Shown here piece after piece: positions 16,701 through 48,522 of a stretch of 64,000 nt of DNA. Position 1 is the stretch's first letter. Every line of letters begins with the position of its first letter. This DNA is from Thermotogaceae bacterium. Its GTDB lineage: Bacteria; Thermotogota; Thermotogae; Thermotogales; Thermotogaceae. The stretch covers positions 124,001 through 188,000 of the forward strand of contig JALWTT010000006.1 in assembly GCA_027077795.1 (NCBI GenBank). The letters are read 5' to 3'. The translations under genes and the position numbers were made by a program. Below the pieces are notes generated by a model. The model had not been told where the DNA came from. It saw nothing but the letters and a program-made list of their open reading frames with translations, and searched no databases.

Positions 16701-17382
16701 GAGACTTGAGAAGCCCTTCTCTTATGTCCTGAAGAATGGCCTCCTCACTATCGGCTCCCCAGAACTTTAGAAGCTTTTGTTTTATCTCTTCAGGATTTCT
16801 CGCTATGTACATGGTGCCGTTTGGTAGGTATGTGTAGCTGAGGTTCATGGAGATTATGAGGGTTCTCAAAGCATCCTCTGGTGGGGAGTTGTTGAGTGTG
16901 AGCGAGGGAATCTTCATCCCGGAAACCCCACTTGAGATCGAGATGTTTATTTTAAGAGACTCGGACAAGTATTTCACTACATCGCCAAACGTCATGTTTT
17001 CGTTGAAAGAATAATCATATCTATTTCTACTTTTCAGAAAGGTCACCGTGATTTCTTTTCCTTTGGAAACGACAACTGGCTTGGAAGGGATGATGGTGTG
17101 GAAGGATACGAAAGAGTCGCTGTTCAACGAATAGACTGCCACAAAATCTAGAGGGCCGGATTGAACTGGTACCATGGAAAAGTTACTCTGGCAGTTCCTC
17201 AGAATCAGAGTGTAAACTGTGCCTGAAAAGCTCGTATCATCTTCGATCTCCACGTTTTTTTCAAGACTCATAACTATTGAAACAGAGGCATCGTTGTTTT
17301 TAACGTTTATTTTCTCCAAGCAACTTGAAAATGCCACTAGGGTTGCTGTAATGAGGAAAATGAAAGAGATTTTTCTCATCAT
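13753..17382 (-). CDS. pilQ: PilQ/GspD-type secretin with many tandem N-domains, lipoprotein signal
   Basis: Outer-membrane secretin channel for a type IV pilus or secretion system, 1209 residues, far longer than the usual 600-750. A lipoprotein signal ends in AFSSC (Cys21). An N0/STN-like module lies near 122-200. Six N1-like (KH-like) modules of about 55-70 residues follow, at about 259-315, 328-382, 396-448, 457-508, 517-570 and 580-640, each with an IL-V-GP/GK strand before a helix. Three more STN-like modules are at about 650-720, 760-835 and 850-928. The secretin domain (935-1205) has VLASPSVTTMNGEKA and VIGGLTRE plus LPILGDLPIIGWLFR. The start overlaps the upstream gene (ATGA). A short proline/serine/threonine-rich linker is near 730-755. 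Confidence 0.92.
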   Translation of the reverse strand: MMRKISFIFLITATLVAFSSCLEKINVKNNDASVSIVMSLEKNVEIEDDTSFSGTVYTLILRNCQSNFSMVPVQSGPLDFVAVYSLNSDSFVSFHTIIPSKPVVVSKGKEITVTFLKSRNRYDYSFNENMTFGDVVKYLSESLKINISISSGVSGMKIPSLTLNNSPPEDALRTLIISMNLSYTYLPNGTMYIARNPEEIKQKLLKFWGADSEEAILQDIREGLLKSLSNKSMLVTTGTPEDIKRIFQALAEKQEEKESYKILDVSDKQTAASMLNEIFGSKLKIFTKLPGKSIMIYGAKLDITSAEKALTESGLMLPSAGAKGRLPVYRVLDVQDVQAAKKVIGSIFPNLKAIEVSSNKLILYGPEVVIESAKKLLLNVGMLGYIKASEKEQVRYEIMKVPNPGDVVQALSVIFGDNLRIALVGDELILVGPEQTINDAKEAIKKFSVETKEKEVTEIITVPDPMGVAEILGQLFEDLKIIPGKIGLVVKGKKERIDEAKEFLKKFEKLNVQKAEEMRIVSVANSASAANVLSKVFENLKIVPVSGKQIVLVGTKDEIDSAIALLKKVFTSTGEEENLVMKIMELPGVSQEQLNTAKKIEEYVKDVEVFRVAGSDKIVLFGKKEESVDKAMKMIKEILSGVSRPVSVKDGKITVKSDNLPLGEIVKEVLEDLGKSVVAIDKLSTPVSLYLENVSFDEFLDVVRKLGAQVDEEGKIFYIRELREKNSLSKLKETKPSTEITSTSAKPTASLKKPEKLQVELKGERVNLRSNGATLAEIISRVADKLSENVVFVDSPDIPVTLNLTDIDLEDLSDILRNFGYELEKVGDVYYVKKTVEKFTSESTSSNMMFDVRFKGEKANINVENAPLSQLIKKLSEGFKKSIVFVDVPSERITLNVQSLNLSDMRDLLERFGYNLEEIDGIYYLTKMGKSIVAKIAYGFGKLQELVQSMGGKIFYDDTTGVVIVRNLNSIAYGIVKNFISILEKSPPQVSIEVRIVEEQANENSGSSAGVNISSGSGDVEINNSGIRLKTKILSASDYESYLKGLLGGDVSLGITGKSEKSKSKVLASPSVTTMNGEKAVIEIGGEKTFITPDGTRLTYPIGVRLEITPYVRSDGKIDLLVNVSISEVEGSYPVITQNRRAATTRVVLEDGQTLVIGGLTRETEAKTVEKLPILGDLPIIGWLFRTESITQETRNLDIFITAKVVGKR

Positions 17383-17867
17383 CTTATTACATACAACCCT
17401 CCTTTCATCACATCGAGTACAATAAGTCCCATGCTTGACACATAGATTATCATATACCTACCGTCGATCAGTTGGTTAACACTTTGAAGGACACTTTTTC
17501 CAGCTATGTTCAGAAAAATCTTCTTGTCCCCACTTTTATCGGTTATATAGCCTCCAAATTTTATGTATCCCACACTCAGATCGCTGGTTAATATGAGCTT
17601 ATTCAGATCTTCTCTTCCACCTTTTATCACATACGGTGACAGCGGATCAGGAGCCGCTATCCCCTTCTTACACACCTTTACATAGCTCTTTATGAAATCA
17701 GGTGTGATATCCTGAACACTTACACTGAACTTCTTCAAATTTACTCTTCTCGTTTCAGCCACCATGTCCCTTCCTCCGGTAGATAACCCGGGCTTAAAGA
17801 AGTAAACAAGGGCCACTCCCCAAAGGGCTATCGCTATCATGAGTAGTACTTTCGCTCTTTTGGTCAC
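17379..17867 (-). CDS. Inner-membrane protein at the PilP position of the pilus operon
   Basis: A 162-residue protein with one N-terminal transmembrane helix (about residues 6-25) and a periplasmic beta-rich remainder that contains LSPYVIKGGREDLNKLIL, VGYIKFGGYITDKSGDKKIFLNI and GKSVLQSVNQLIDGRYMI. PilP proteins link the PilN-PilO pair to the secretin and are read just before pilQ, as here. Unlike classical PilP it has no lipobox, and similarity by eye is limited to architecture, so the assignment rests on position. The start is GTG at 17867 (GTGA overlap with the pilO-like gene), and its stop overlaps the secretin start. AAAGGAGGG near its end probably serves the secretin gene, at an unusually long 14-base spacing. 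Confidence 0.65.
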   Translation of the reverse strand: MTKRAKVLLMIAIALWGVALVYFFKPGLSTGGRDMVAETRRVNLKKFSVSVQDITPDFIKSYVKVCKKGIAAPDPLSPYVIKGGREDLNKLILTSDLSVGYIKFGGYITDKSGDKKIFLNIAGKSVLQSVNQLIDGRYMIIYVSSMGLIVLDVMKGGLYVIR

Positions 17868-18322
17868 TCTCTCAGCTCCAAGATCCTCACTTCTATAACG
17901 ATGTTTGCATAAGATTCAACGGGTGTGGATATAGTCATGGGATTCTCCAGCTTGTTGTTCACTTTCAGAGATTCTATGTAAGAGTTTGGATTCTTGGTGA
18001 AATAGTCCAAAATTTTAATGAGTTTTCTACCATTCACCCGCCCGCTTATTGATATTGTACCTCTGTTTTTAACAATTTTCATACCTTTGAAAATGTCAAT
18101 ATTCAAATCGGGTGGTTTCTTGAGAACTTTCTTGAGGTCTTCCATGGCCTTCAGTTGCTTGATGTACCTGTCATAGGATTCCTCTAGGATAGGCAATTTG
18201 TCCTCTATAGCCTTTTTCAAATCTCTCGTTTCTCTGTACCTTGGAACTGTTGCCAAAGCCAAAGAGACTATCAAGATTGTCAGCCCAAGGATCAAGAGGT
18301 ATTTTCTCTTAATGGCTCGCAA
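17864..18322 (-). CDS. pilO: PilO-like inner-membrane assembly protein
   Basis: A 152-residue protein with a short basic N-terminus (RAIKRK), one transmembrane helix (about 8-27), a coiled coil (about 30-70) and a C-terminal alpha/beta domain (about 75-152). This is the layout of PilO, which pairs with PilN in the periplasm to align the pilus machine. The C-terminal part has the ferredoxin-like strand order GTISISGRVNGRKLIKILDYF and IEVRILEL. The start is TTG at 18322, preceded by GGTGAT and overlapping the upstream gene by 14 bases. Sequence identity to known PilO is not obvious; the call uses architecture and the order M-N-O-P-Q. Confidence 0.75.
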   Translation of the reverse strand: MRAIKRKYLLILGLTILIVSLALATVPRYRETRDLKKAIEDKLPILEESYDRYIKQLKAMEDLKKVLKKPPDLNIDIFKGMKIVKNRGTISISGRVNGRKLIKILDYFTKNPNSYIESLKVNNKLENPMTISTPVESYANIVIEVRILELRE

Positions 18323-18875
18323 AGTTGATCACCACCTTGGACATTTTTTTTCCCTCGGTTGTGTTGACATCAAATAAGACGTCCTCCTTCACCGTTCCCA
18401 AATCCTTCAGAGAGTTCACCATGCCATCGCTTTTCCTTGAGGCTGTGTATATCTCGTACAGGGTGATATTCATCTTCTTTGAATCCATGTCCAAACTTGT
18501 CAAGATGATCCAGTCGTTCTCGGATCTCTCGAAGTTGTTCATGACCTCTGAAAGCAACCTCTTTGAAAAATACGCGGATTTCAGGAATTGTATTATGTCT
18601 TTCTTCTGTCTGACCAGCACTATGAAATTGGTGTCATACTTGTTTATGAGGTCGTCCAGGTTGGTTATATCCACCTCTCTACCCCTTATGTTCAAATGAA
18701 GTTTCCTGATAATCTCAGCATGTTCCAGCCTTATCTTTTCGACTTCGTGTCTCCACACATACTCCAGTAGTACCCTGCTACCGAAGGCTGGCAGTAACAT
18801 GATCAGCAGGAATATCGTGGCGGATCTGAAAGAGACTACCCTACTTTTTTTGTTGTAAAGATTTAACTTTTCCAA
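18309..18875 (-). CDS. pilN: PilN-like inner-membrane assembly protein
   Basis: A 188-residue bitopic protein. A short cytoplasmic tail, NLYNKKSR, is the kind of segment by which PilN binds PilM. It is followed by a transmembrane helix (about 17-38), a heptad-rich helix (about 40-85) and a C-terminal ferredoxin-like domain with DWIILTSLDMDSKKMNITLYEIY. The start is TTG at 18875, seven bases after AGGAGGT, and lies 35 bases inside the pilM-like gene, so the two are translationally coupled. The order and overlap fit the pilMNOPQ operon seen in many diderm bacteria. Confidence 0.78.
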   Translation of the reverse strand: MEKLNLYNKKSRVVSFRSATIFLLIMLLPAFGSRVLLEYVWRHEVEKIRLEHAEIIRKLHLNIRGREVDITNLDDLINKYDTNFIVLVRQKKDIIQFLKSAYFSKRLLSEVMNNFERSENDWIILTSLDMDSKKMNITLYEIYTASRKSDGMVNSLKDLGTVKEDVLFDVNTTEGKKMSKVVINFASH

Positions 18876-19800
18876 ATTCCATACCTCCTCTTAACAAGAG
18901 GCCGTTTAATCCCTTCACGTTTTTCACCACTACGTTCACGTTCAAAACCTCAGAAATCGCATTTGAAAGAGGTAAAGATAAGCAGATGGGATCCGTTACC
19001 AGTGTGAAAAGGCTTACATCGCCCATTGCTAGTTCTTTACCTGTTCTCAGCAACTGAACGAGTTCTCTGTTTATTTCCATGGACAGATTCGTGAAGCCCT
19101 CTTTGAGGAATGCGTACAACTCGCTACTCCCATCTATCCCTCCAAGGAGATTAACCTCAGGCATAGTCAAGCCGAACTCATCTTTCAGAACCTGGAACAG
19201 CTCTTCCAAGTTTGGGTACATACTTCTGACACCTACGATTTCACCTTCAGACACCAGGAACATGCTTGTGTAATTTTTGAAGAAGTTTGTGACTACGTAG
19301 ACCGCATTCCCATGTGTGGGGAATGAAAGCACCTGAAGGTATTTCATAGAATCAGGTATTACTATATCGGGTTCCGGAAGTTCCAGCGATTTCAGCTTCC
19401 TAACCACGTTTTCTTCTATATCTGTGTTCTTGGCAACTGCGAAAAGATATTTCCCACTTCTCTTTCCAACGGGTGTGACTGATATGCTATCTATCGGAAT
19501 TCCCATGATTCTGGCTGCCTCTACTTTACCTATGTTGATGATTTCCCTTATTCTCTTGACTCTGAGCGGTACGGGGGCATCTATGAAAAGTGTCATCCCT
19601 GTGTCGATGGTTGTCACAATCACGTCCTCGGGTTGGAATTTGAACTTGAGGATTTTTTTCCACTCTTCTCTGTTCTCTGAAAAAACGATGTTTTGATAAG
19701 TTATCAGGATTTTCCCGAAGGAGTATTTAGCTCTGGAAACCGCGAAGTAGTTCCCCGAGATATCCACCGCTACTATGTTCTTTGGAATTGGCCAGTTCAT
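18841..19800 (-). CDS. pilM: PilM-like actin-fold pilus assembly protein
   Basis: A 319-residue cytoplasmic protein with an actin-like ATPase fold. The N-terminal phosphate-1 type strand NIVAVDISGNYFAV is at about residues 8-21. A second-lobe segment AVYVVTNFFKNYTSMFLVSEGEIVG near 170-195 fits the second nucleotide-binding strand pair, and NLLGGIDGSSELYAFLKEGF near 238-257 the adenosine motif. PilM binds the tail of PilN at the inner membrane. The start ATG at 19800 overlaps the preceding small gene by ATGA. The protein is a little shorter than typical PilM (about 350 residues). Confidence 0.8.
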   Translation of the reverse strand: MNWPIPKNIVAVDISGNYFAVSRAKYSFGKILITYQNIVFSENREEWKKILKFKFQPEDVIVTTIDTGMTLFIDAPVPLRVKRIREIINIGKVEAARIMGIPIDSISVTPVGKRSGKYLFAVAKNTDIEENVVRKLKSLELPEPDIVIPDSMKYLQVLSFPTHGNAVYVVTNFFKNYTSMFLVSEGEIVGVRSMYPNLEELFQVLKDEFGLTMPEVNLLGGIDGSSELYAFLKEGFTNLSMEINRELVQLLRTGKELAMGDVSLFTLVTDPICLSLPLSNAISEVLNVNVVVKNVKGLNGLLLRGGMEFGKVKSLQQKK

Positions 19801-20150
19801 TTGATCCCCACCACCATCCTACCGGTTACGGGGTGGAAAGAAACGTATCCGTGTTTCATGTAAACAGTTCCAGCCTTTTCTATGAATCCCATTCTGTACC
19901 TTATAAAACCATTTTTGATGTACTCTATGTCGAAATCCCTTTTTGAAAGGAAATGGTTCCCCAGGGTTCTAACACCGGCGTTCGATATGATGATCTTACC
20001 TTTGGTGTACCTGGACCTCATGATCTGGGAGAAAACATACGCTTTGAGCTCCATGGGGCTGATCTTGTCGCTTTTAACGAGTTTGACTGTGGGAAGAACC
20101 ATCACAGTGCTCAGTACTATTATTATCAACACCCAAATGATTTGGGTCAT
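19797..20150 (-). CDS. Small N-terminally anchored protein in the pilus operon
   Basis: A 117-residue protein with one N-terminal hydrophobic helix (residues 4-24) and a short periplasmic beta domain (IIISNAGVRTLGNHF, then YVSFHPVTGRMVVGIK). The size and the hydrophobic N-terminus recall minor pseudopilins, but there is no leader-peptidase site of the G/A-FTLIE type, so I do not call it a pilin. It lies between pilC and pilM with TAATG and ATGA overlaps on either side, which makes a role in the same machine likely. The function is unknown. Confidence 0.65.
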   Translation of the reverse strand: MTQIIWVLIIIVLSTVMVLPTVKLVKSDKISPMELKAYVFSQIMRSRYTKGKIIISNAGVRTLGNHFLSKRDFDIEYIKNGFIRYRMGFIEKAGTVYMKHGYVSFHPVTGRMVVGIK

Positions 20151-21367
20151 TACATTCCAACTCCCATGCTACCTTGATAGCTGAATATTGCGGAGTAGAT
20201 GCTCAGGGCGATAAATGCTATGGCTCCACCAACGAGCGCGATCATCATAGGTTCAAGGAGTGATACAAACTTCCTGACTGCTATTCTGAGCTGCTGTTCG
20301 TAAAATGTGGCGACTTTCTCCATAACTTCGTCGACCTTACCAGTAGCTTCTCCGGTACCCGCCATTTCATAAACAAGTTGAGGTACCAGTCTCGTTTCCG
20401 CCATGGCATCTCTTAAGGTTCTTCCTTCCTTTATCAGTTCCACAACCTTTTCGGCTCTCTCCTCGAATATCCTACTACCCGTTGCCTGCGCCGCCATTTC
20501 TATCGCCGTGGTTAGGGTAACACCAGCTGAAACCAGTATTCCAAGAGTCCTTGAAAATCTCTCCAAAGCTGAGAACGTGTGAATTTTTCTAAGCGGTGGA
20601 AATAGGGAAGACAGATTCTCTTTGAATTTCCTTCCGCTCATCGTTGAAAAGTAAAACTTCAATCCAATTATTGTTCCAACGAGGGCAGCTATTATCTCGT
20701 AGGAATACCTGATCATGAAGTCCCTCATACTCATGAGTGTTCCCAGGAATCCTATGGGTTTCATTCCTATGCTGTGAAGAAGCATAGGGATTATGTAAAA
20801 CATCATCACAAATACCACGAGAATAGCGAATCCACCGATGAACATGGGGTACCTCATGGAAGCTTTGATCTCATCCGAGAGTTGCCTGGAGGATTCGTAA
20901 AACTCTGCCAACCTCTCCATTGTTCTATCGAGAGTTCCTCCCTCTTCACCTGCCTTAATCAGGTTTATGAAGACTGGCTCGAATCCTCCCACCTCGGCGA
21001 AAGCTTCGGAAAGGCTTCTGCCGGATTCTATAGAGTCGATTATCGAGTTGAGCTTGTTTCGGAACCTTCCAGAGAATACCTCCTGTTCTGCAAGAACGCT
21101 CAAGGCTTCCTTTATTCGCACTCCTGCGGAAATCATGGTGGCAAATTGGCGGCAGAAAACAGCTACTTCCGCTGTCGATACTGCAAATATCGAGCGGCCT
21201 GTTCTCGCCCCTTCCGCGGCTTTCTTCGCCTTTCCAGGCTTTATGTCAACCACGACAAATCCCCTGGACGAGAGTTCAGATAACGCTCCTATTTCACTGT
21301 TTGATTCGATAACCCCTTTGACTTTTCTTCCACCCTTGTCATACGCAGTGTAAGAATAAACGGGCAT
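20150..21367 (-). CDS. pilC: Type IV pilus / type II secretion inner-membrane platform protein (PilC/GspF)
   Basis: Polytopic platform protein of 405 residues that couples the assembly ATPase to the growing pilus. The N-terminus reads MPVYSYTAYDKGGRKVKGVIES, as expected for GspF/PilC. Two T2SSF repeats follow, each with a LIKAGEEGG or MAGTGEATGKVDE signature (about residues 150 and 330) and long hydrophobic helices. There are three transmembrane segments. The start ATG at 21367 directly follows the dnaE stop (TGAATG), with AAAAGGAGTGAG as SD. It is full length and should be functional. Confidence 0.93.
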   Translation of the reverse strand: MPVYSYTAYDKGGRKVKGVIESNSEIGALSELSSRGFVVVDIKPGKAKKAAEGARTGRSIFAVSTAEVAVFCRQFATMISAGVRIKEALSVLAEQEVFSGRFRNKLNSIIDSIESGRSLSEAFAEVGGFEPVFINLIKAGEEGGTLDRTMERLAEFYESSRQLSDEIKASMRYPMFIGGFAILVVFVMMFYIIPMLLHSIGMKPIGFLGTLMSMRDFMIRYSYEIIAALVGTIIGLKFYFSTMSGRKFKENLSSLFPPLRKIHTFSALERFSRTLGILVSAGVTLTTAIEMAAQATGSRIFEERAEKVVELIKEGRTLRDAMAETRLVPQLVYEMAGTGEATGKVDEVMEKVATFYEQQLRIAVRKFVSLLEPMMIALVGGAIAFIALSIYSAIFSYQGSMGVGM

Positions 21368-32110: not shown

Positions 32111-33595
32111 TTGAGTTCGACTCTCCTTGAAGTCAGGGGCATAGTAAAGAGGTTCCCAGGAGTTCTGGCTCTTGATGGTGTGAATTTTGATTTGAGAGAA
32201 GGTGAAGTTCACACCCTCTTGGGTGAGAATGGCGCCGGAAAGACCACCTTGATGAACATCATCTTTGGTCTTTACAGGGCAGATGAGGGAGAAATCCTCT
32301 TCAAGGGAAAGAGAGTGCACATCAGGTCCCCCTATCATGCTCTTCAGCTTGGTATAGGTATGGTTCAGCAGCATTTCACTTTGGTTCCTTCTTTCACTGT
32401 AGCGGAGAACATTGCTTTGGGTACAAGGGATACACCTAGTAGAGTCGCGGCGAAGATCAGGGGAATATCTGAAGAATACGGTCTGGAGGTCGATCCGCAT
32501 GCGAAGGTATGGCAACTTTCTGTTGGAGAGAGACAAAGAGTTGAGATAATAAAGCTTCTTTACGCTGGGGCAAGGGTGGTTATACTCGACGAACCGACGG
32601 CAGTCTTAACTCCTCAGGAAACAGAAGCGCTTTTCAAAGCTGTGAGGAAGATGACGTCCCGTGGAACTGGCGTTATATTCATTTCACACAAACTGAACGA
32701 GGTTATGGAGATCTCCAGCAGGGTCACCGTCTTGAGAAAAGGAAAGGTCATTGGAACCTTAGAGAGAGGAGAGTTTGATCAGAACAAATTGGCTCGGATG
32801 ATGGTTGGAAGAGAAGTTGTTATGGAGATAGAAAGGGAAAAAGCAAGGCCAGGAGAGCTCGTTATAAAGGTCGAAGATGTCCACGCGAGAAGTGATAAGG
32901 GTCATATTGCACTCAACGGAATCTCGCTTGAGATCAGAGCAGGTGAGATACTCGGTATAGCTGGCGTTGCCGGTAACGGGCAGAGGGAATTGGCAGAGGT
33001 TATAACGGGTTTGAGAAGAGTCGAAAGCGGAAAAATCGAGTTTCTCGGAAAGGATCTAACGAATACAAGTGTCATAGATAGGATTCTAGCCGGGATAGCG
33101 TACATTCCGCAGGACAGAAAGGGGATTGCTCTGAGCCCAAACCTTTCAGTTGCAGAGAATCTGTTTTTGAGAAGGAAAGAAAAGAAGGTGTGGTTCAACA
33201 AGAGGGAGATTTTTGGGCATGCTAGGAGGTACATCGAGGAGTACAAGATAAAAACTCCATCTCCTGCAACTGCTGTGAAATACCTATCCGGTGGTAATAT
33301 GCAGAAAGTTGTCATAGCCAGGGAATTTTCATTGGATCCGAGGCTTATAATAGCCGTCCATCCCACAAGGGGATTGGATGTCGCATCCATGGAATTCGTT
33401 TACCGAAGTTTGATAAAAGCCAGAGATAAGGGGGTTGCGATCTTGCTTCTGGCCGGAGAGCTTTATGAGATATTCAACCTCTCCGACAGGGTCGGGGTTA
33501 TATACGAAGGTAAAATCGTTGGGTATACGACGCCAGATCCAACACCGGAGAACATAGAGAAGATAGGTCTGATGATGGCAGGTGTTGCTGTATGA
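32111..33595 (+). CDS. Nucleoside/simple-sugar-type ABC transporter ATPase (YufO/NupO-like)
   Basis: Double ABC ATPase of the RbsA/YufO class, 494 residues. The first domain has GENGAGKTT, Walker B VVILDEPTAVLTP and switch SHKLNE; its signature is the variant LSVGERQRVEI. The second domain has the degenerate Walker A GVAGNGQRELAE, the YIPQDRKGIAL block and LSGGNMQKVVIARE, with HPTRGLD where Walker B is expected, all usual for this class. The frame opens at 32060, but the promoter -10 lies at 32071, so the start is TTG 32111, with AAGGAGGTGAG before it. With the two permeases it should import nucleosides; the tdk gene next to it agrees. Confidence 0.92.
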   Translation: MSSTLLEVRGIVKRFPGVLALDGVNFDLREGEVHTLLGENGAGKTTLMNIIFGLYRADEGEILFKGKRVHIRSPYHALQLGIGMVQQHFTLVPSFTVAENIALGTRDTPSRVAAKIRGISEEYGLEVDPHAKVWQLSVGERQRVEIIKLLYAGARVVILDEPTAVLTPQETEALFKAVRKMTSRGTGVIFISHKLNEVMEISSRVTVLRKGKVIGTLERGEFDQNKLARMMVGREVVMEIEREKARPGELVIKVEDVHARSDKGHIALNGISLEIRAGEILGIAGVAGNGQRELAEVITGLRRVESGKIEFLGKDLTNTSVIDRILAGIAYIPQDRKGIALSPNLSVAENLFLRRKEKKVWFNKREIFGHARRYIEEYKIKTPSPATAVKYLSGGNMQKVVIAREFSLDPRLIIAVHPTRGLDVASMEFVYRSLIKARDKGVAILLLAGELYEIFNLSDRVGVIYEGKIVGYTTPDPTPENIEKIGLMMAGVAV

Positions 33596-36354
33596 GGTTG
33601 AAGGTGGAGAAAAGGCTCGATATACCCAAATGGGCGGGTGCGGTGGTTCCCATAATATCAGTTGTCATAGCGCTCTTGATAATGGGAATAGTTATATACT
33701 TTTACATGTACAGCAAGCCTTCTTATCTGAAAAGAGCCGTATTTGGAGCCTTCAACGAGTACAGGTCGATCATCTACAGGATACCGGAGAAATCATGGGA
33801 TAGATTCGAGAAGATGCTCAAAGCTGGAAGATTGAAATCAGCTATCGCAATTCCAAAAGGGAAACTTTCCTCAAATGTATCCAGTTTTGCCATTTCAAGG
33901 TTGGAGGAAGTGTTCAGATCCACCGAGGAATCCTACAAGTTCGTCAGGGACACATCTGAAACCGTGAAGAGCTTTCCGAAGGAGTTTAAGGAGCTCCAGG
34001 AGCTCTACGAGAACATAGGTTATATAATCAAAGCATATTCCGCGCTCAACAGGACTATAAACAACGCGAAATCCATCATGAACAATGAGTGCAACGACTG
34101 TGATTTGAAGGAAGGGATGGATTCATTTGTTGAGAATCTCTCGAAAGTGGGAGCGCTGGGTGATCTGATTTCCGATGCTAAAAGTATAGATTTATCTGAT
34201 GTCGAGGGAACTCTTAAAGGGCTTGAAAAGATCAAGTTGGAATTTCCGAAAGAAGTCAAAAAGATCTTCTTGGAAAAAATGGCCAAATCTGTAAAGACCA
34301 TATCGCACAGATGCCCAATTTCCAGATCTTCGTGGGAAGATCTTCTCACAGATTACAAAAAAAATGTAGATGATGCAATCTCCTCCGGTTTCAACCCATT
34401 CCTTTTCGAAAAAGCTTCTGTGATACTCGATAACATATCGGTGTATTATTGTTTTGCACCTGTTGTGAGAATCTGGAATAATTCACTGGAGCCACTTTAT
34501 GACCTCCACAAGAAGGTTTCAACCGTCGAGCAAGTGTATTCTCAGCTTTCTAGCGCTTCAAGAAGCTTGCAAGGGGTTTTGAAATCTCTCGAAAAGGGCC
34601 GAACTTTCTTCGTAAAAGACACGGTTTACTCAACAGCCAGATATGTGAAGAATTCCTATAAGAGGCTTGAGTTGGACGCTTTCACGGCGTCTGTGTTCAG
34701 TAAAAGGATCAAAAGCCTAAAGTCTTTGTACCAGGAATTGGAGGATCTTTACAAGGGTTTGGGAACCCCGTCCGAAATGAAGAAAAACGTAGAACGGATT
34801 TCAAGTGAGGTAAAGCAGCTCTCTGGAAAAATAGAGAAGGAGAAAAACGCTTTGAGTGAAGATTTTCTTAAGACTGCTGAGGGTTATTCCAAGGATGCCA
34901 TCGATTCCTTCGCAAAAGTTCAGAACGAACTGTTTCAAAGAGGTAGCATAGAGGCAGATCTTTCAAAATATTTAGGACTTCTCATGGACACGTACACATA
35001 CAAGTTAGAAGAGGCTTTGAGGTCTGGGATAGGTAGGCTGAAACTGAGCATGGCTTATTCCCAACTTAAAGATGTATCTAAAGATCTGACGATGTTCTTG
35101 AGAAACATCGCGGATTACTGTCCCTCACTCAGCGATAAAATGAAGTTGAGCTTGGATTATGAGACATATGTCTTTGATATGGAAGCACTCAGGATACACA
35201 CATCTCAGCAAATCGTTTTTGACAGTGATAAGACCAAAATGGAAATGGAAGAAGCGTTCCTTAAGGAGAAGAAGATCACCAAAGAAAAATACATGGAGGT
35301 TCTTGGCAAGACACTCGATGGTCATCTTCAAAGAGTTGGAGCAATACTGAACGATCTTGAAAGTGAACTCAGAGACCTCACCAAAAAATTTGGACAAGTT
35401 TCGAAGGTTTCCTGGATAGCTGTGGGGAAAGCCTTCAAGCAACTTTCAACTTGGCCATTCATACCAAGTCAAGGTTTGCCGGACACTATAAATTACATGA
35501 CACCTCTTTTGTTCACAGGGCTAGGGCTCATTCTGGTTTTCCAGATGAAACTGTGGAACATAGGTGCAGAGGGTCAATTCTACTTGGGGGTTATGACGGC
35601 TCTCTGGCTATCACTTTTTGTCTTCGACAAGCACCCATCAGTTGCGGAAGTTCCGGTGATATTATTCGTTGGGGGACTCGCCGGAGCCGCATGGGCAGCT
35701 ATAGCAGGAGCTTTAAAAGCGTTCTTGAATATAGACGAAATAGTTTCAACACTTATGCTCAACTACATAGCTTTCCATTGGATGGAATATCTGGTTTACG
35801 GCCCTTGGAAAGCACCTACGAATTTTCCGGAAACAAATGAGATTCCAAGGCAGTTTTTCCTTCCAACATTTGGAACGAGTAGGGTACACATAGGTGTGAT
35901 CATAGCCATGTCTCTCACGATAATCGTGTATCTCTTGATGAGGAAAACTTGGTGGGGATTTGATCTAAGGGCTATAGGAGATAACCCAAATGCGGCGAGG
36001 TACTCCGGGATCGACATAGCCAAAAATGTGGTCTTGGCCATGGCTGTTTCAGGGTTCTTTGCGGGACTCGGGGGAGCCACTCAGATACTCGGGTTCGAAC
36101 ATAAGCTGTATCATGGATACGCTCCTGGATATGGATACACTGGGATAATAATAGCATGGCTTGCCAGATTGGATCCTTGGGCAACGATTCTCGTCTCGTT
36201 CCTCTTTGGTGGTTTCTTGGTTGGAGGGGATCAGATACAGCTGGTTTTGAAGCTTCCAAAAGCCGTGGTTGTCGCGATAGAGGGAGTCATCTTGTTCTCA
36301 TTGATAGCCTCTGAGGTTTTGTTCAAGTACAGAATAAGGGTGGTGAGGAAATGA
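33592..36354 (+). CDS. Nucleoside-type ABC permease with a giant extracytoplasmic insert (YufP-like)
   Basis: 920 residues, whereas YufP-type permeases have about 350. Residues 15-40 are the normal first transmembrane helix and residues about 635-915 the normal rest, with TPLLFTGLGLILVFQMKLWNIGAEGQ (the NIGAEGQ signature at 656-662), ALKAFLNIDEIVSTLMLNYIA and RAIGDNPNAARYSGID. In between, about residues 42-610 form a charged, mostly helical, coiled-coil-rich domain that falls in the first loop and should lie outside the membrane. It has five cysteines (167, 170, 241, 287, 510). No stop, shift or change of codon style marks the joins. The gene overlaps the ATPase by ATGA and the second permease by 4 bases. 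The insert's role is unknown. Confidence 0.88.
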   Translation: MRLKVEKRLDIPKWAGAVVPIISVVIALLIMGIVIYFYMYSKPSYLKRAVFGAFNEYRSIIYRIPEKSWDRFEKMLKAGRLKSAIAIPKGKLSSNVSSFAISRLEEVFRSTEESYKFVRDTSETVKSFPKEFKELQELYENIGYIIKAYSALNRTINNAKSIMNNECNDCDLKEGMDSFVENLSKVGALGDLISDAKSIDLSDVEGTLKGLEKIKLEFPKEVKKIFLEKMAKSVKTISHRCPISRSSWEDLLTDYKKNVDDAISSGFNPFLFEKASVILDNISVYYCFAPVVRIWNNSLEPLYDLHKKVSTVEQVYSQLSSASRSLQGVLKSLEKGRTFFVKDTVYSTARYVKNSYKRLELDAFTASVFSKRIKSLKSLYQELEDLYKGLGTPSEMKKNVERISSEVKQLSGKIEKEKNALSEDFLKTAEGYSKDAIDSFAKVQNELFQRGSIEADLSKYLGLLMDTYTYKLEEALRSGIGRLKLSMAYSQLKDVSKDLTMFLRNIADYCPSLSDKMKLSLDYETYVFDMEALRIHTSQQIVFDSDKTKMEMEEAFLKEKKITKEKYMEVLGKTLDGHLQRVGAILNDLESELRDLTKKFGQVSKVSWIAVGKAFKQLSTWPFIPSQGLPDTINYMTPLLFTGLGLILVFQMKLWNIGAEGQFYLGVMTALWLSLFVFDKHPSVAEVPVILFVGGLAGAAWAAIAGALKAFLNIDEIVSTLMLNYIAFHWMEYLVYGPWKAPTNFPETNEIPRQFFLPTFGTSRVHIGVIIAMSLTIIVYLLMRKTWWGFDLRAIGDNPNAARYSGIDIAKNVVLAMAVSGFFAGLGGATQILGFEHKLYHGYAPGYGYTGIIIAWLARLDPWATILVSFLFGGFLVGGDQIQLVLKLPKAVVVAIEGVILFSLIASEVLFKYRIRVVRK

Positions 36355-39489: not shown

Positions 39490-40995
39490 TTGCTCGAAGA
39501 GATGAGAAAGCAGCGCCTGAAGGAGATAGAAGAACTGAGGAACATGGGGATAGAGCCTTACCCTTACGGCTATGACAAAGAAGAATCAAGTCTTCGGATA
39601 AAGGAGAAATATGATAGGGAGCTACAAGCAGGTCAGGTTAAGGATGATGTGAGGGTCTCCACAGCTGGGAGAGTTATGTCGATAAGAGATCATGGAAAGA
39701 GCGCTTTTTTTCATATAAAAGATCAAGATGGCAGGATACAAGCGTACATAAGGAAGAATTCCATAGGACCTGAGAAGTACGACATCTTTAAGAAGCTTGT
39801 AAATGTTGGGGATATATTGGGAATAAAGGGTTTTCCTTTCAAGAGCAGAACGGGAGAACTCACAATTTTTGTTGAAGATTTTCAGATCCTTTCGAAAGCG
39901 ATAAGACCCCTTCCCGAGAAATGGCATGGTTTGAAGGACAAAGAGATAATCTACAGGCAAAGGTATGTGGACATGATAGCGAGCGATGATTCCCTCAACC
40001 GGTTCAAGACTCGCTACAAGATAATAAGGATGATAAAAGAGTTTTTAGACGGCAGAGGATTCATAGAGGTTGAGACTCCCACGCTTGTTTATGTTACAGG
40101 TGGTGCCGAGGCTAGGCCATTTGTGACCCATTTGAACGTGTTTGACATGGATATGTACCTGAGAATAGCGACTGAGCTTTATCTAAAGAGGTACATAATA
40201 GGAGGGTTTGAGAGGGTTTACGAGATAGGGAAGGTTTTCAGGAACGAGGGTATATCTTATAAACACAGCCCAGAGTTCACCTCTCTTGAACTCTACTGGG
40301 CTTATGCGGATTATGAGGATATAATGAATCTGACGGAAGAGTTGATAGAGTATGTGGTTAAGAGGACGTTTGGAACAACGAAGATCATGTACCAGGGTAT
40401 AGAGATAGATTTCTCCAGGCCTTTTAAAAGATTGAAGATGAGGGATTTCATAAGGGAAAAGCTGGGAGTTGACATACTTGAGGATTCTGATGAGGATATG
40501 ATGAGAGTGCTAAAAGAGCGAGATGTGAATGTTCCTATAAAGAGCAGAGGACATCTCATAAACAAGCTTTGGGATCTCGTTGAGGAAGATGTGGTGCAAC
40601 CGACGTTTCTCTTGGAGCATCCGGTTGAGATATCCCCGCTGGCAAAGCGCCATAGAAAAGACCCCAGGGTAACCGAGAGGTTCGAATTGATAATCTACGG
40701 AAGAGAGATAGCCAACGCCTTCTCTGAGCTCAACGATCCTGTTGATCAATATCAGAGATTTTTGGAGCAGTCTAAACTCAGGGAAGCTGGTGATGAGGAA
40801 GCACACATGATGGACAAGGACTTCGTGAGAGCTCTTGAGTACGGTATGCCACCCACTGGTGGATTGGGAATAGGAATAGATAGGCTTATAATGTTCTTAA
40901 CCGATAGTCCTACTATAAGGGATGTCATAGCTTTCCCATTGGTGAATCCAAAATCTCTCGATGAGGAGATAGAGTATGGAGGTGAGGAGAAGTGA
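39490..40995 (+). CDS. lysS: Lysyl-tRNA synthetase, class II
   Basis: Charges tRNA-Lys. From TTG 39490 it has 501 residues, the standard size. The N-terminal OB-fold anticodon-binding domain (about 50-150) has [17 protein letters not shown]. Class II motif 2 is [21 protein letters not shown] near residues 250-270, and motif 3 is [12 protein letters not shown] near 465. Starting at GTG 39475, as the open frame allows, would place the SD inside the gene: GGAGGTGAT is at 39477-39485, four bases before TTG 39490. The stop overlaps the next gene by GTGA. Confidence 0.96.
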
Positions 40996-42752
40996 GCTAC
41001 AGAAATTGGATGAAGAAATGGCAAGCTGTGATATTTTGGGCAATTGCCGCGGCTTTCGTTGTGGGAATAGGCTGGTGGTCAGCAGCGTTTTACATAAGAA
41101 ACAGAAGGTCGAGTTCCAATTCCCAAAGTACGAATTTGAATTATTTGGCGGAGTATGCCACAGCTTACTTGGTCAAGGACGCCACCGAAACTGAGATGAG
41201 CTCTTCGACGTTCTTCCCTGGAATGTCAGAGATTTTGATATTACAGGATGTGGATAAAGACATCGGAACGATCGAACCAACAAGTATGTGGATAGAACAG
41301 GATGATTTTCAGAAGGTTTACCCCAGTGTTAAGGTTTATTACGAGAGTGTCTATCTGAAGAGAACCACAGATCCGGTGTTCGAAGACTACCTTCTGAGGG
41401 CTGAAACCATAGCTTACATGGGATTTACCAGAATGCTTCAAGATTACCAGAGTGTTGAACCTATCCCATCTTCCACTCCATCGACAGATGATGTGTACGA
41501 ATACTTTGACAAGAACGCGTCGGAATTGGCACCGATGTTCTCGGAATACCATGTCAAAGCTGTCACGCTGAATTCTACCCAGTTGGTTCCGTTCCAAAGG
41601 TATCTTCTCAGTGAAGGGTTCGACGAAGCGGCGAGTGCAGTTGGCCAGCAAGTGTTCGATTTGGGAACCATGGAGGGTGAAAGCATGCTCTCCATGGGAA
41701 TTGACAAAAGGATGATAAAAGAGATGTATGAGATTGGGAAGAGTGGCGTTGTAGGTCCACAACCCTTCGGAAACAATTGGCTGTTCTTAGAGGTTCTCGA
41801 ATCAACTCCTGTGAAAAATGCGAGCGATCTCACAGAAAGCCAAATAAACAAGATAAGAGGGGAGGTCGTCAGGGATAGAATCAACACTTATCTGAACGGG
41901 ATGAAAGATTACTACGAAAAGAGGGGAGAAGCTGTAGTGATAAATGACGATAATCTGAGGCTCTGGTACGATTACTACAGGTACATTTCCAAGGATAAAT
42001 TGCCAGAGCTCGTGAAACTAGGAGAAGAGATAAAACCTTATGTTGTTAAAAGCGATGGAGAGGTTAACGTCAATGCTTTGAGCACAACGCAGGCGTTGTA
42101 TGTCTTGATATTGGAAAGGGAAAAGGTGTTCCTCCAAGACATGAGAAACCTCTTGAGTGAAAGCTCAACCTCAACGGATCTTCAGATGTACAGGGAAGCT
42201 TTTGGAAACTTGAAGGTTTCCGATATAGAAAAGAAGATCGCGGAAATAGACAATCTCAGAAAGAAGATCATCTCTAATCTCTATTACAGCGGTTATAAGG
42301 TCTACGGGGTACTTCAGAGAATGGTGGAGATATTTGGGGACCCGAAGTACAAGCTTGAACTTGCAGAGGTTAGCTCTGAGGGAAAGAAAGAGGTCGCACA
42401 GAGGTTGAAGATGATGTATGGGATGGATGTTCAAAAGATGGCCAACAGCTTCATGCCGGAGATTCAAACGTTCTTCGGAATCATGAATTCAACTGACACC
42501 TCTATATCCACCAGCATGAAGTTGAAAGCCATGGAGGATTCATACGACCTTCTGAAATTCCTCGGCGTCTATCAAGTTGCCAGCAGCGTTTTGAGCGAGA
42601 TAAGACAGGCATCTCCTTCCTACAAGGGTTGGAATTTCAACAAGATGTTCTCAGAGCTTGACCAACTCATGAAGCCATCTACCCCTGCTACGAACGAATC
42701 TGCGACTTCGACGCCGTCCACCCTGTCTCCATCCACACCGTCCACGGAGTGA
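40992..42752 (+). CDS. SurA/PpiD-like membrane-anchored protein of uncertain function
   Basis: 586 residues with an N-terminal transmembrane helix (about 10-30) and a large extracytoplasmic part. A region near 240-310 ([20 protein letters not shown], then a helix ending in [23 protein letters not shown]) resembles the end of a parvulin domain and the following helix in SurA/PpiD chaperones, but the catalytic core of a peptidyl-prolyl isomerase is not obvious. The rest is helical. The C-terminal 25 residues are a Thr/Ser/Pro-rich tail ([11 protein letters not shown]). The start is GTG (GTGA overlap with lysS). It may be an envelope folding factor; the assignment is tentative. Confidence 0.6.
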
Positions 42753-44001: not shown

Positions 44002-44225
44002 GACTGGATAGGTTTCTAAAGACCTTTGGAGTGATAAAAAGGCGCTCCATCGCTCAAGAAATGATAAGAGGAAAAAGGGTGAGGGTGAATGGGAGAGCCG
44101 TTAGGCCCTCTCAGGAAGTTGGTGATGGTGACGAGATCGAGATTTTCTTTGGAAACCGTTATCTCAGAATCCGAGCTGTGAAAGGTGGCTATGAGATTTT
44201 AGAGGAGGAGAGGATAAGAAACTGA
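43998..44225 (+). CDS. S4-domain RNA-binding protein (RqcP/HslR-like)
   Basis: 75-residue single S4 domain. MRLDRFLKTFGVIKRRSIAQEMIRGKRVRVNGR is the canonical S4 alpha-L motif, followed by SQEVGDGDEIEIFFG. Small S4 proteins of this kind bind the ribosome in stalled-ribosome rescue (RqcP in Firmicutes) or heat shock (HslR). The ATG overlaps the moeA stop by 4 bases. The last 62 bases overlap, on the opposite strand, the end of the metallopeptidase gene. Size and motif point to RqcP more than HslR, but I leave the symbol open. Confidence 0.88.
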   Translation: MRLDRFLKTFGVIKRRSIAQEMIRGKRVRVNGRAVRPSQEVGDGDEIEIFFGNRYLRIRAVKGGYEILEEERIRN

Positions 44226-46767
44226 TATTCAGCTTCGATAGGGTCAAAACCATATCCTCGTAGCTCGTTCCAAAGCTGTAATATATTCCAAGGAACTTCG
44301 CGTTTTTGTCAAAAATCGCTTTTAGCCTGATCCCGATGGGTGATGGCGTATCGAGTATTGTAAAAATCTTCAGTGTTGTGTCTAGTTCCAAAGTTCCAAA
44401 AACGTCCAGATCCTTGCCGTATCCGAATTCTATTCCGGGCTTAAGAGATAGATGAACCCCCCTAAACGAGAAAAGATTCATCACGTTTGTTCTTCTACCC
44501 TTATCTAGATCAAGATGAAATCCCAGTTGTGCTACACCGAAAGCGGTGTAACTCGCACTGTACATCTGCATGGGTGAGTTTGAGTAAATTCCAATTGCCG
44601 AGATGCTGAGGAGATCCGTCGGAAAGTAGGAAATTTGGGATTCTGTGAACCAATTTTTTCTGAAAATCTCGTAATCCCCATAAACGCCAAAAGCTAGGGA
44701 ATTTTTATCAAGGTCTATGAAATCGTACTCTCCCCATGTGTCCAAATCTTCAGAGTAATTCATCCCGATGTAGAAGTAGTTCCTGGTTGTGAGATACTTC
44801 TCGTCGTATCCTATATTCACCGATTCCGGGAATGTGAAAGCTCCGGATATTTGAACTTGAAGTGGCATGGGATTTCCAAGGTAAAGTTCGCTGAGACGGA
44901 TATATGGATTTGGGGAGTACATGGAAGACACCCCATAAACGGAGCCTTTGTACTTTAAATCTGTTCCAACTATGGTGTAGCGAGAGCCACTCAGGAAGCT
45001 CACGGCGTATTCGTCAAACTTTCTAATCCCGAGTGCCAAAGACGTGTACATATCACTCTCCGATGTGTATCCACTCACCGCGTTGAAGATTATGTCATAA
45101 GCTTCAAGGGGCGATTCCTCCTCCTTGAAGGGATTCCTCACGAGAACGGGATAATGGTTGTTGAACCTATCTGGATCTGGAAGGGCCCAATCTGGATCAA
45201 TATCCACTCTATCGAAGTTTCCTTTTAATGTAGTGGCATTGCTCAAGGTCAGAGTAACCTCGCTCGAACCTCTTGAAAGTTTCACTTTGTATGGAACACC
45301 TTCTGGTACATCGATAAAAACCCCCTTTTCCTTTGGAACAACTTTGGCATCAATTCCTCCCTTATCCTCGAAGAGAACCTTTAGTGCCGTCTCAACCCTT
45401 GGATTTTTTGCCAATATAAACCTCTTGAAATCCTCGTAAGTTACGACTTTTCCATCGAATCTCTTGTGGTACTCCTTTAAAACGTCGTCGAAGTTGCTGA
45501 AAAGAAGCGCCAAAGTCCTGAACGCGAAATATCCCTTTGCGTAGTTTCTGGGGAACTCTTGATTCAGGAATTTCGCCTTCCCTTCAACGCTCCAATCAAT
45601 TCCTTCCCTGTTCATCTCTCTGTAGTAGTAGGAATAATCCTCCCTGAGTGATTTGAAATAGAATAGCCTTTTCAGACTACCGACAAGTACATCTGGCAGT
45701 TGTGATTCGTAGAGGTTTTCGGTCGCTCCGCGCTCCTCTTCCATCTGAGTTATCGCGGAATATTGGGCTAAGGACTCAGAAAGAAAGTTACTGCTTTCAA
45801 AATCCACACTTGCACCTATTCCAAACCACAAATGTGCCGTTTCGTGATAAACGAGAAACTCCTCAAGAGGTGTGGTAAATCCGGGAAGGATCAGATCAGA
45901 AGTTGTGAAAGCGTTATCCCCCAAGGTTATGATTCCAGGAGCTGTCATTCCGAAAAGTCTTGAATATGGAGACTGAATCACGTGGATAGTTTTATAAGAC
46001 AGCTTTCCAAATCTTTTCGAGTATTCTTGGAGCGCGTGGAGTGTCATCGCGGCTATTTTCATCGCTTTGTCTTTCAGACCCTTGAAATGGTGCACCACCA
46101 CGGTGTAATTTTCACCCACTAATTTGTATTTGTCGTAATTCCTCAGAAACGCGACAGGGCATCCCATTCCCGTTCCCTCATGGAATGCAACATCCCAGCC
46201 TTTCGGAGTGGAAATTTTCAGTCTGCATTTGTGGGGGGTATAAACCATTCCGTCATAGTATCTCCCATTCCTGGCGTAGACTTCCAGTGGATACCATCCG
46301 AACCTCCAGAGACACAGTCCGCCAAAGCATCCCTCATCTTCCCCTTCCTCAGGGAATTTCGTCTTGAAGCGGATTTTTATTTCAACTTCTTGACCTGGTA
46401 GGACATCTCTCCTGAGATCTACTGAAAGCAGAGTTTTGTCTTTGGAGTACCTTTGATACATGTGAACGAAACTCTGTTTAACGGTGAACGATGCTTTCTT
46501 CCCATCCACCCAAACGTTTTCTACATCTATCCAACCCCTCGCGTTCCTCTGTGCTATCGGGGAAAGGTAAGGATTTTTCTCCTCGTGAAGATTCGGAAAT
46601 AGATTGAACAGAGCCAGAGATGTGGAAAAACTCAGGGGATTTTCCCAGTGAACGATTTCCGTTGCATCTATCGAAAGGTTTGTGGAGTTAAAGGAGGCAT
46701 CTATCATATAAACCGATGCGAGCAGACTGACTGAAAGAAGAGAGAAAATTAGAGTAATACCTTTCAC
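44164..46767 (-). CDS. M1-type zinc metallopeptidase fused to a predicted C-terminal beta-barrel
   Basis: 867 residues with a signal peptide (about 1-24). An N-terminal beta domain (about 30-230) has two cysteine pairs in range (147/152, 181/203). The gluzincin catalytic region has HETAH at 308-312 and a third zinc ligand Glu331 after 18 residues, exactly the M1 spacing, plus NYAKGY near 409, which fits the M1 catalytic tyrosine. From about residue 555 the sequence changes to alternating polar/hydrophobic strands of 9-12 residues with short turns (for example YFYIGMNYSE, SLAFGVYGDYEIF, FLGIYYSFGTSY), read here as an outer-membrane barrel of roughly 300 residues; the last residue is Phe. GTG start at 46767 with AAGGAGGGG upstream. 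The barrel is an inference. Confidence 0.8.
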   Translation of the reverse strand: MKGITLIFSLLSVSLLASVYMIDASFNSTNLSIDATEIVHWENPLSFSTSLALFNLFPNLHEEKNPYLSPIAQRNARGWIDVENVWVDGKKASFTVKQSFVHMYQRYSKDKTLLSVDLRRDVLPGQEVEIKIRFKTKFPEEGEDEGCFGGLCLWRFGWYPLEVYARNGRYYDGMVYTPHKCRLKISTPKGWDVAFHEGTGMGCPVAFLRNYDKYKLVGENYTVVVHHFKGLKDKAMKIAAMTLHALQEYSKRFGKLSYKTIHVIQSPYSRLFGMTAPGIITLGDNAFTTSDLILPGFTTPLEEFLVYHETAHLWFGIGASVDFESSNFLSESLAQYSAITQMEEERGATENLYESQLPDVLVGSLKRLFYFKSLREDYSYYYREMNREGIDWSVEGKAKFLNQEFPRNYAKGYFAFRTLALLFSNFDDVLKEYHKRFDGKVVTYEDFKRFILAKNPRVETALKVLFEDKGGIDAKVVPKEKGVFIDVPEGVPYKVKLSRGSSEVTLTLSNATTLKGNFDRVDIDPDWALPDPDRFNNHYPVLVRNPFKEEESPLEAYDIIFNAVSGYTSESDMYTSLALGIRKFDEYAVSFLSGSRYTIVGTDLKYKGSVYGVSSMYSPNPYIRLSELYLGNPMPLQVQISGAFTFPESVNIGYDEKYLTTRNYFYIGMNYSEDLDTWGEYDFIDLDKNSLAFGVYGDYEIFRKNWFTESQISYFPTDLLSISAIGIYSNSPMQMYSASYTAFGVAQLGFHLDLDKGRRTNVMNLFSFRGVHLSLKPGIEFGYGKDLDVFGTLELDTTLKIFTILDTPSPIGIRLKAIFDKNAKFLGIYYSFGTSYEDMVLTLSKLNISFLSSPPLKSHSHLSQLGF

Positions 46768-46789
46768 ATTATCCCCTCCTTTTCATCGC

Positions 46790-46890: not shown

Positions 46891-48522
46891 ATGAAAAAAT
46901 TATTCATAGTGGTTTTGGCGGTGATCGCAACGTTGATGTTGCTCTCAAGCTGTGCAGAGGCTACGAATCCAGAGGCTGGTTCGGGAGCAACGGGTGAATC
47001 GACTGTAGTGGCGGAGAAAATAAGCATTCCGGTGTATCTCACAGACAAGAGGATACTGGATGTGAACAAGCTACTCGTGGACATAACAGGTGTGAAGTAC
47101 AAGTGGGTGTATCCAGACACGGATGAAGGTAGCATGATGAGTGTAGTCGCGGATTTAAGGAATGTAGATCTTCTCTCATTGGCAGGTAGTGAGATGGAGT
47201 GGTTTGACATGGACATTCCAGAGGGGGCGGAGCTTCAGTCAGTGGAGTTTAAAGTTTCATCTGCCACCGCCGTGATAGATGGTGAAGAAGAGGCCGTGCA
47301 GGTGCCGAGCGACAAGATAAAGGTGCTGGTGAACGGTATGGCATTTTCCACGGGAGAAGGGCTTTTGATCGATTTTGATGTATCTCAATCTCTGGTGAAA
47401 GCCGGGAAAAAGTACATACTGAAGCCGGTTGTAAAAGCGTTTAAAAAGTACAAGAAAAAAGGAGGAAAAGAGGAAACATACACGGTGAGCGGTACGGTGA
47501 CAGAATCGGGCAGTCCGGTATCTGGGGCAATAATAGCATTGCTGGATGAAGAGGAAAGCACGGTGGTTAGAAGTACGTTGAGCATGAAGAATGGGATGTT
47601 CAAGCTCAGAGGTGTAGAAGAAGGCGATTACAAGCTGAACGTGTACATGATAGGCACGCTTTCAGAAGGGTCAGACCTTACTGATTATGAAGCATCTTAC
47701 AGCACGAATTTACATGTGGATGAAGACATAGACCTTGGGGTGGTAGACATCGGAACCCCGAGCGAAGGCGCCTCTCCAACTGAGAATGCTTCGGTTTCCA
47801 TCCTTTTCAGTGACGATCCCACCTTGGGAATAGATCATGTGTATGTTTATGTAGGCTATGTGGATTACACATATGAATTTGGTGGGGAAAAGAGCAGCGG
47901 CTCTGTATCGTTGAATGAGAATGTAGATCTTTTGAGCCTGGCTGGTGAGGAACTGAAGATGACCGAGCTTCCCATCCCGAGTGGTGCTATCCTGAAATCT
48001 GTTGGTGTTGAGATAAAAAGTGTAGAAGTCATAGCGGGTGGAGAAACATATCCCGTGGATTTGAAGAATTCATACGCTTCGGTTAATCTCAACTTGAAGG
48101 TGAGCGGTGATCTGGGGGTAGTCCTTGATTTTGATATGATGCAATCGCTCTTTAAGAGCACTACAGGATACTCTTTTGATCCTTTTATCAAGGGAATGGT
48201 AGAAGATCCAAGCAATCCCCAGTACAAGATAACGGGGAAAGTTTTGATAAGTATAGGTGGTATCACCACTCAACCTGCTGCTGGTTTCATCGTTGCCTTG
48301 TTCAGTGGTAGTGAGGTTTTCAGGGTGACGTTAACGAAAAGTAATGGAACTTTCAGAGTTTTCAACATCCCGAATGGTGATTACACCCTGAAGGTTTATC
48401 AACCTCAGATACTTCAACCTGGTCAGAAAATCACGGATCTTCCCCTTCTTTACAGTGGGGACGTGACGGTTTCATCATCTGACCTGGATATCGGAGATAT
48501 AATAGTGAGTATAAGCCTTTGA
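46891..48522 (+). CDS. Lipoprotein with duplicated DUF4382-like plus carboxypeptidase-regulatory-like modules
   Basis: 543 residues, lipoprotein signal ending in MLLSSC (Cys21). The protein is an internal duplication: a DUF4382-like domain (about 45-175; ISIPVYLTDKRILDVNKLLV) is followed by a carboxypeptidase-regulatory-like beta domain (about 195-280; YTVSGTVTESGSPVSGAIIAL). Both recur at about 300-430 (SVSILFSDDP) and 445-540 (YKITGKVLISIGG). Each half carries N/ENVDLLSLAG and GEGLLIDFD/LGVVLDFD. No catalytic residues are seen; the likely role is a surface- or periplasm-anchored structural or binding protein. Strong SD before the ATG. Monocistronic, with its own -10 and terminator. Confidence 0.82.
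   Translation: MKKLFIVVLAVIATLMLLSSCAEATNPEAGSGATGESTVVAEKISIPVYLTDKRILDVNKLLVDITGVKYKWVYPDTDEGSMMSVVADLRNVDLLSLAGSEMEWFDMDIPEGAELQSVEFKVSSATAVIDGEEEAVQVPSDKIKVLVNGMAFSTGEGLLIDFDVSQSLVKAGKKYILKPVVKAFKKYKKKGGKEETYTVSGTVTESGSPVSGAIIALLDEEESTVVRSTLSMKNGMFKLRGVEEGDYKLNVYMIGTLSEGSDLTDYEASYSTNLHVDEDIDLGVVDIGTPSEGASPTENASVSILFSDDPTLGIDHVYVYVGYVDYTYEFGGEKSSGSVSLNENVDLLSLAGEELKMTELPIPSGAILKSVGVEIKSVEVIAGGETYPVDLKNSYASVNLNLKVSGDLGVVLDFDMMQSLFKSTTGYSFDPFIKGMVEDPSNPQYKITGKVLISIGGITTQPAAGFIVALFSGSEVFRVTLTKSNGTFRVFNIPNGDYTLKVYQPQILQPGQKITDLPLLYSGDVTVSSSDLDIGDIIVSISL

Follow-up and report, generated by a model that had tools for sequence, protein, structure and literature searches.

Envelope enzymes held by a membrane barrel of their own are, to our knowledge, found mainly among the autotransporters. 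In type V secretion, the Va autotransporters and the Vd patatin-like proteins carry an N-terminal enzyme and a C-terminal outer-membrane barrel, which has 12 strands in type Va and is an Omp85-like barrel accompanied by POTRA in type Vd. An analogous but unrelated layout is seen in the Peptidase_MA_2-PD40 proteins of Bacteroidota, which combine a signal-peptide-like start, an N-terminal clan MA peptidase domain, a beta-propeller (PD40) and, at the C-terminus, a long region with DF as its last residues that we take to be an outer-membrane barrel. Peptidase_MA_2 scored above its cut-off in 159 of the 297 Bacteroidota genomes searched, with many frames of about 1050-1130 aa, and these proteins may form a large family of propeller-bearing outer-membrane peptidases. 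The M1 metallopeptidases (PF01433; tricorn factor F3, ERAP, IRAP, LTA4H and PepN) share domains I-III, an HEXXH-X18-E zinc site and a Tyr in YxKG. Thermotogota are a deep-branching diderm phylum with a loose, ballooning periplasm and a poorly described outer-membrane proteome. Among the outer-membrane beta-structured proteins of Thermotogales is the toga porin OmpB of Thermotoga (TM0476), to which the protein below is likened by description; OmpB is a porin of about 42 kDa that stands alone, without a peptidase, and has Phe as its last residue (PMC3387000).

The window (the whole 64,000-nucleotide stretch of Thermotogaceae DNA that was analysed) contains a complete gene for an M1-like peptidase joined to a predicted beta-barrel. 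This protein shares domains I-III, the zinc site and the YxKG Tyr with the M1 metallopeptidases, but lacks GxMEN and the helical domain IV and has a predicted C-terminal barrel instead. It differs from type Va autotransporters in having 16 predicted strands, and from type Vd in that neither POTRA nor an Omp85-like barrel was seen: no Pfam match to a POTRA domain or to the PF01103 barrel was obtained in any of 20 homologues. The Bacteroidota proteins belong to a different peptidase family and have the propeller in between, and their C-terminal region could not be aligned with the Thermotogota C-terminal domain (hhalign E 0.47). Given the Bacteroidota layout, this is not the only clan MA peptidase to carry a probable outer-membrane domain. 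A preliminary description of the locus had held the layout to be unfamiliar; the general idea thus has a likely, analogous precedent, and what stands is that the direct fusion of M1 and barrel is apparently undescribed. No paper on an M1 or other metallopeptidase with a barrel was found in the open-access literature, and the two passages of the OMPdb paper in which peptidases or proteases come up deal with matters other than a fusion of this kind. In the literature searched, a direct union of M1 domains and a barrel, with neither propeller nor POTRA, therefore appears undescribed, and the architecture is a real and conserved, apparently undescribed variant of the barrel-anchored envelope enzyme.

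The open reading frame, taken from the window's ORF list and translation, runs from 46767 to 44164 on the minus strand, to which all features of the protein given below belong, and encodes 867 aa from a GTG start. Its extent is exactly the interval first proposed, and the plus-strand frame over 44164-46767 is full of stops. Upstream of the GTG lies a Shine-Dalgarno-like AAGGAGGGG (46773..46781). Residues 1 to about 17 (MKGITLIFSLLSVSLLA; 46717..46767) form a predicted Sec-type signal peptide, and the N-terminus is hydrophobic in all homologues in which it is complete.

The enzyme part was assigned by Pfam, AF2, Foldseek and a homologue alignment. Peptidase_M1 (PF01433) was matched at residues 245-453 (E 4.4e-8; 33.4 bits against a curated cut-off of 27.7) as the sole Pfam match in the protein, and the same family was matched by 20 of the 20 collected homologues. 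The full-length AF2 model (alignment of five sequences; mean pLDDT 56) consists, up to about residue 524, of a beta saddle, a thermolysin-like domain and, third, a small beta domain, and its top Foldseek matches were IRAP, ERAP and tricorn factor F3 (E about 1e-20). M1 domain I, the beta saddle, occupies residues 18-228 (46084..46716; AF2, Foldseek, alignment) and includes a conserved RFGWYP at residues 155-160. It is followed by the catalytic domain at residues 229-468 (45364..46083; Pfam PF01433, AF2, Foldseek), an M1 domain III-like small beta domain at residues 474-524 (45196..45348; AF2) and a linker between enzyme and barrel at residues 525-555 (45103..45195), which is highly conserved in the alignment (P....DPDR.NNHYP). 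The HETAH motif (45832..45846) provides the zinc ligands H308 and H312 and the general base E309, E331 (45775..45777) is the third zinc ligand, with 18 residues between H312 and E331, and Y409 in YAKG (45541..45543) is the equivalent of the M1 catalytic Tyr. The HExxH with a third ligand 18 residues on and the Tyr-bearing NYAKGY block of the preliminary description are both borne out by these assignments. Across the 20 homologues, the most distant of which have 26% identity, all five residues (H308, E309, H312, E331 and Y409) are invariant, and no other domain of the protein is as well conserved in the alignment as the catalytic one. The 867-aa protein contains M1 domains I-III with an intact zinc site, and to judge from its sequence it is very probably an active peptidase.

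The GxMEN motif is absent in 20 of 20 homologues, in which the position reads [FYW]G[MIL][TA][AT][PDN]G. In the protein itself it is occupied by GMTAPG (residues 273-278; 45934..45951), with Thr in place of the exopeptidase Glu; in a pairwise alignment with the GGMEHPG of Bacteroidota M1 proteins, this Thr fell on the Glu of GMEHPG. Aminopeptidase O is a vertebrate M1 protein in which we know of no barrel. It keeps the Met of GxMEN and has lost the Glu and Asn (PMC2241622), and the Thermotogota proteins keep the Gly on either side (GMTAPG). In M1 aminopeptidases the GxMEN Glu is positioned for binding the N-terminus of the substrate, and the motif is tied to exopeptidase specificity (PMC10343166; PMC2241622); since aminopeptidase O also lacks this Glu, its loss alone is no proof of endopeptidase activity (PMC2241622). 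We use the name M1-like, not M1 aminopeptidase, because GxMEN is missing. The earlier label M1-type thus holds for the fold and the zinc site, but not for the standard aminopeptidase specificity.

After residue 556 the AF2 model has strands where M1 aminopeptidases have the helical domain IV. When the C-terminal domain was modelled alone (AF2, five sequences), it reached a pLDDT of 72 and formed an up-and-down meander of 16 successive antiparallel strands; its pLDDT in the full-length model is about 23-66 per block. The C-terminal 320 residues had a higher hydrophobic moment as beta-strand than as helix in 20 of 20 homologues, with the reverse in the M1 part; the excess over shuffled sequence was modest (z 1.6-3.7), yet present in each homologue. 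AF2, Foldseek and the loop test below place a predicted 16-strand transmembrane beta-barrel at residues 556-832 (44272..45102), in accord with the roughly 300-residue strand region that had been proposed in place of the helical M1 domain. A resemblance to G-x-x-aromatic-x-aromatic is seen in the predicted last strand, FLGIYYSF, although this strand lies internally and the resemblance is weaker in the homologues. Beyond it the AF2 model has a helix (836-849) and then a disordered tail with Phe as the last residue (44167..44271), and the terminal Phe was rejected as a barrel end signal. This Phe, pointed out earlier, is real and is present in five of six relatives of the protein's own family and in none outside it; it is neither the end of the last strand nor a family-wide barrel-ending residue.

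In the loop test, strand borders were taken from the model only and applied to the 20-sequence alignment. The results showed that the eight odd connections had entropies of 2.10-2.90 and the seven even connections 1.65-1.99, ranges without overlap, and that six of the seven even connections had zero length variation. In an exact permutation of the odd/even split, this outcome was 1 in 6435 for the full set and 1 in 6435 for the homologues from outside the protein's own family alone; within the own family alone it was 2-3 in 6435. The conserved residues P619, P647, G653, R759, N764 and D806 are all on the even side. Outer-membrane barrels usually have conserved turns on the periplasmic side and variable loops on the external side. 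In the strands and loops of its conserved C-terminal domain, the protein shows the statistics of a membrane barrel, and the barrel reading, for which the structural models argue, is well supported and highly likely.

The even, conserved side of the predicted barrel is the one that carries the enzyme, and therefore a periplasmic location is favoured over the surface. Given a barrel, we consider this orientation likely, although docking of the enzyme on a beta structure of any kind could account for the conservation at that side. Of the two placements in the toga left open by the preliminary description, surface or periplasm, the periplasmic one is thus preferred. The reading that we regard as the best explanation of the whole, and as somewhat more probable than all others, is that of a Sec-exported, barrel-anchored, periplasmic M1-like peptidase. 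The protein would be exported by Sec, and its C-terminal 16-strand domain would be inserted in the outer membrane (toga) by the Omp85 of the genome as a closed barrel. The conserved 525-555 linker would hold the zinc peptidase against the barrel, keeping it at the periplasmic side against the conserved periplasmic turns. Peptides or envelope proteins would be hydrolysed there by the usual gluzincin mechanism, in which the zinc-bound water attacks, E309 acts as base and Y409 stabilises the transition state; peptidase activity and substrate are in this respect putative. Owing to the loss of the GxMEN exopeptidase motif, the specificity would be unlike that of M1 aminopeptidases. An Omp85 protein is encoded in the own genome, as are four SLH-domain proteins (438-459 residues), whose layout is, we assume, that expected for toga OmpA-type anchors. 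More speculatively, the barrel might be an open 16-strand peptide-conducting pore, with the M1-like domain under its periplasmic mouth cutting incoming peptides, a porin-peptidase evolved in Thermotogota; we think this rather doubtful. A gluzincin that sits on the periplasmic side of a barrel of its own would, if true, be another way to keep peptidases in a loose periplasm.

An autotransporter-like arrangement, in which the barrel translocates or displays the M1-like domain and the 525-555 linker runs through the pore so that the enzyme lies outside the toga, is unlikely. Type V secretion has the same order of passenger, linker and C-terminal barrel, the linker here (31 residues) is long enough and very conserved, and toga-attached amylase and xylanase are known in Thermotoga (PMC3387000). 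However, the barrel is not of the 12-strand type Va kind, no POTRA as in type Vd was found by Pfam, and the well-conserved residues between strands or at their ends are all at the enzyme side, which fits direct docking.

Fold comparison bears on a second alternative, that of a peptidase, soluble or peripheral in the periplasm, with a large beta domain outside the membrane (an open sheet, a superhelix or a sandwich) as its C-terminal half. The 50 best PDB fold matches of the C-terminal domain (Foldseek) were all membrane beta-barrels, including BamA, Occ/OprD, VDAC, Tom40, PgaA, TamA and autotransporter barrels, and none was a soluble beta fold. These matches were marginal (best E 1.1e-3, range to 3e-2; TM-scores 0.22-0.43; rmsd 8-21), and no Pfam or PDB sequence family was matched by the domain. 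With marginal E-values and low TM-scores, the matches support the fold class but fall short of proving a closed barrel; closure and membrane insertion are what we infer. A soluble domain would agree with a model that is close to no closed barrel (TM below 0.5) and with the lack of sequence matches to barrel families, but it leaves the absence of soluble folds among the best matches and the strict variable/conserved alternation over 16 strands hard to explain, and we judge it quite improbable. The structure prediction proposed earlier thus gave a 16-strand meander matching membrane barrels and no soluble sandwich. Least credible of all is a barrel that is itself the functional part, a peptide-specific porin with an M1-like binding or gating domain of little peptidase activity, which would suit the loss of GxMEN in all homologues and the Occ/OprD-kind barrels of 16-18 strands among the fold matches, but not the invariance of metal ligands, base and catalytic Tyr in 20 diverged homologues or a catalytic domain that is the most conserved.

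The distribution of the fusion was assessed with profiles. The whole-length profile had matches in 22 of 103 Thermotogota genomes, representing 10 of 38 genera; several genera had no match in this search, including all own-family genomes of one genus (g5). The C-terminal profile alone gave 21 strong matches in the Thermotogota genomes, all at M1-bearing loci, and one further, weaker match to a gene truncated at the end of its contig. Conversely, PF01433 scored above its cut-off at 22 Thermotogota loci, 21 of which are this fusion and one a separate 401-residue frame. The M1 domains and the barrel domain therefore co-occur near-exclusively, and the fusion is the only clear M1 peptidase found in nearly all Thermotogota genomes that have one. 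The search for homologues of the same joint architecture, suggested at the outset, recovered the C-terminal domain in all close and distant homologues with a complete gene. In a contig profile scan, full-length relatives were in Thermotogota only among the matches listed, Marinitoga lauensis included, and matches listed from outside the phylum had catalytic-domain similarity only. Viral contigs scanned with the whole-protein alignment yielded nothing, and a viral fold library gave one uninformative match (3.5e-4) to an unnamed protein. By its sequence distribution, the barrel-anchored M1-like fusion is a Thermotogota family.

The peptidase gene stands on its own: moeA converges with it on one side, and a gene for a DUF4382 lipoprotein diverges from it on the other. 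Two genomes of the same genus keep this arrangement, one contig of the same family retains LysRS and a weak SurA-like match but nothing else, and the remaining homologue loci showed no common neighbourhood. No function is drawn from the neighbourhood because it is otherwise unconserved. The divergent gene (46891-48522, plus strand) encodes a lipoprotein with an LSSC lipobox, two DUF4382 and two CarboxypepD_reg stretches; at about 55% identity in the same genus it is less conserved than its neighbours. Between lysS and moeA, a 586-aa protein (40992-42752, plus strand) has an N-terminal membrane anchor and a SurA/PpiD-like look with no Pfam match, and shows 77% identity within the genus and 26% in another genus of the family. 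Farther away, a 920-aa branched-chain amino-acid permease (33592-36354, plus strand) has its permease domain at residues 633-896 only, preceded by a 630-residue N-terminal part without a Pfam match. At 13753-21367 on the minus strand lies a type IV pilus/type II secretion-like cluster, whose products include a 1209-aa secretin and a T2SSF protein.
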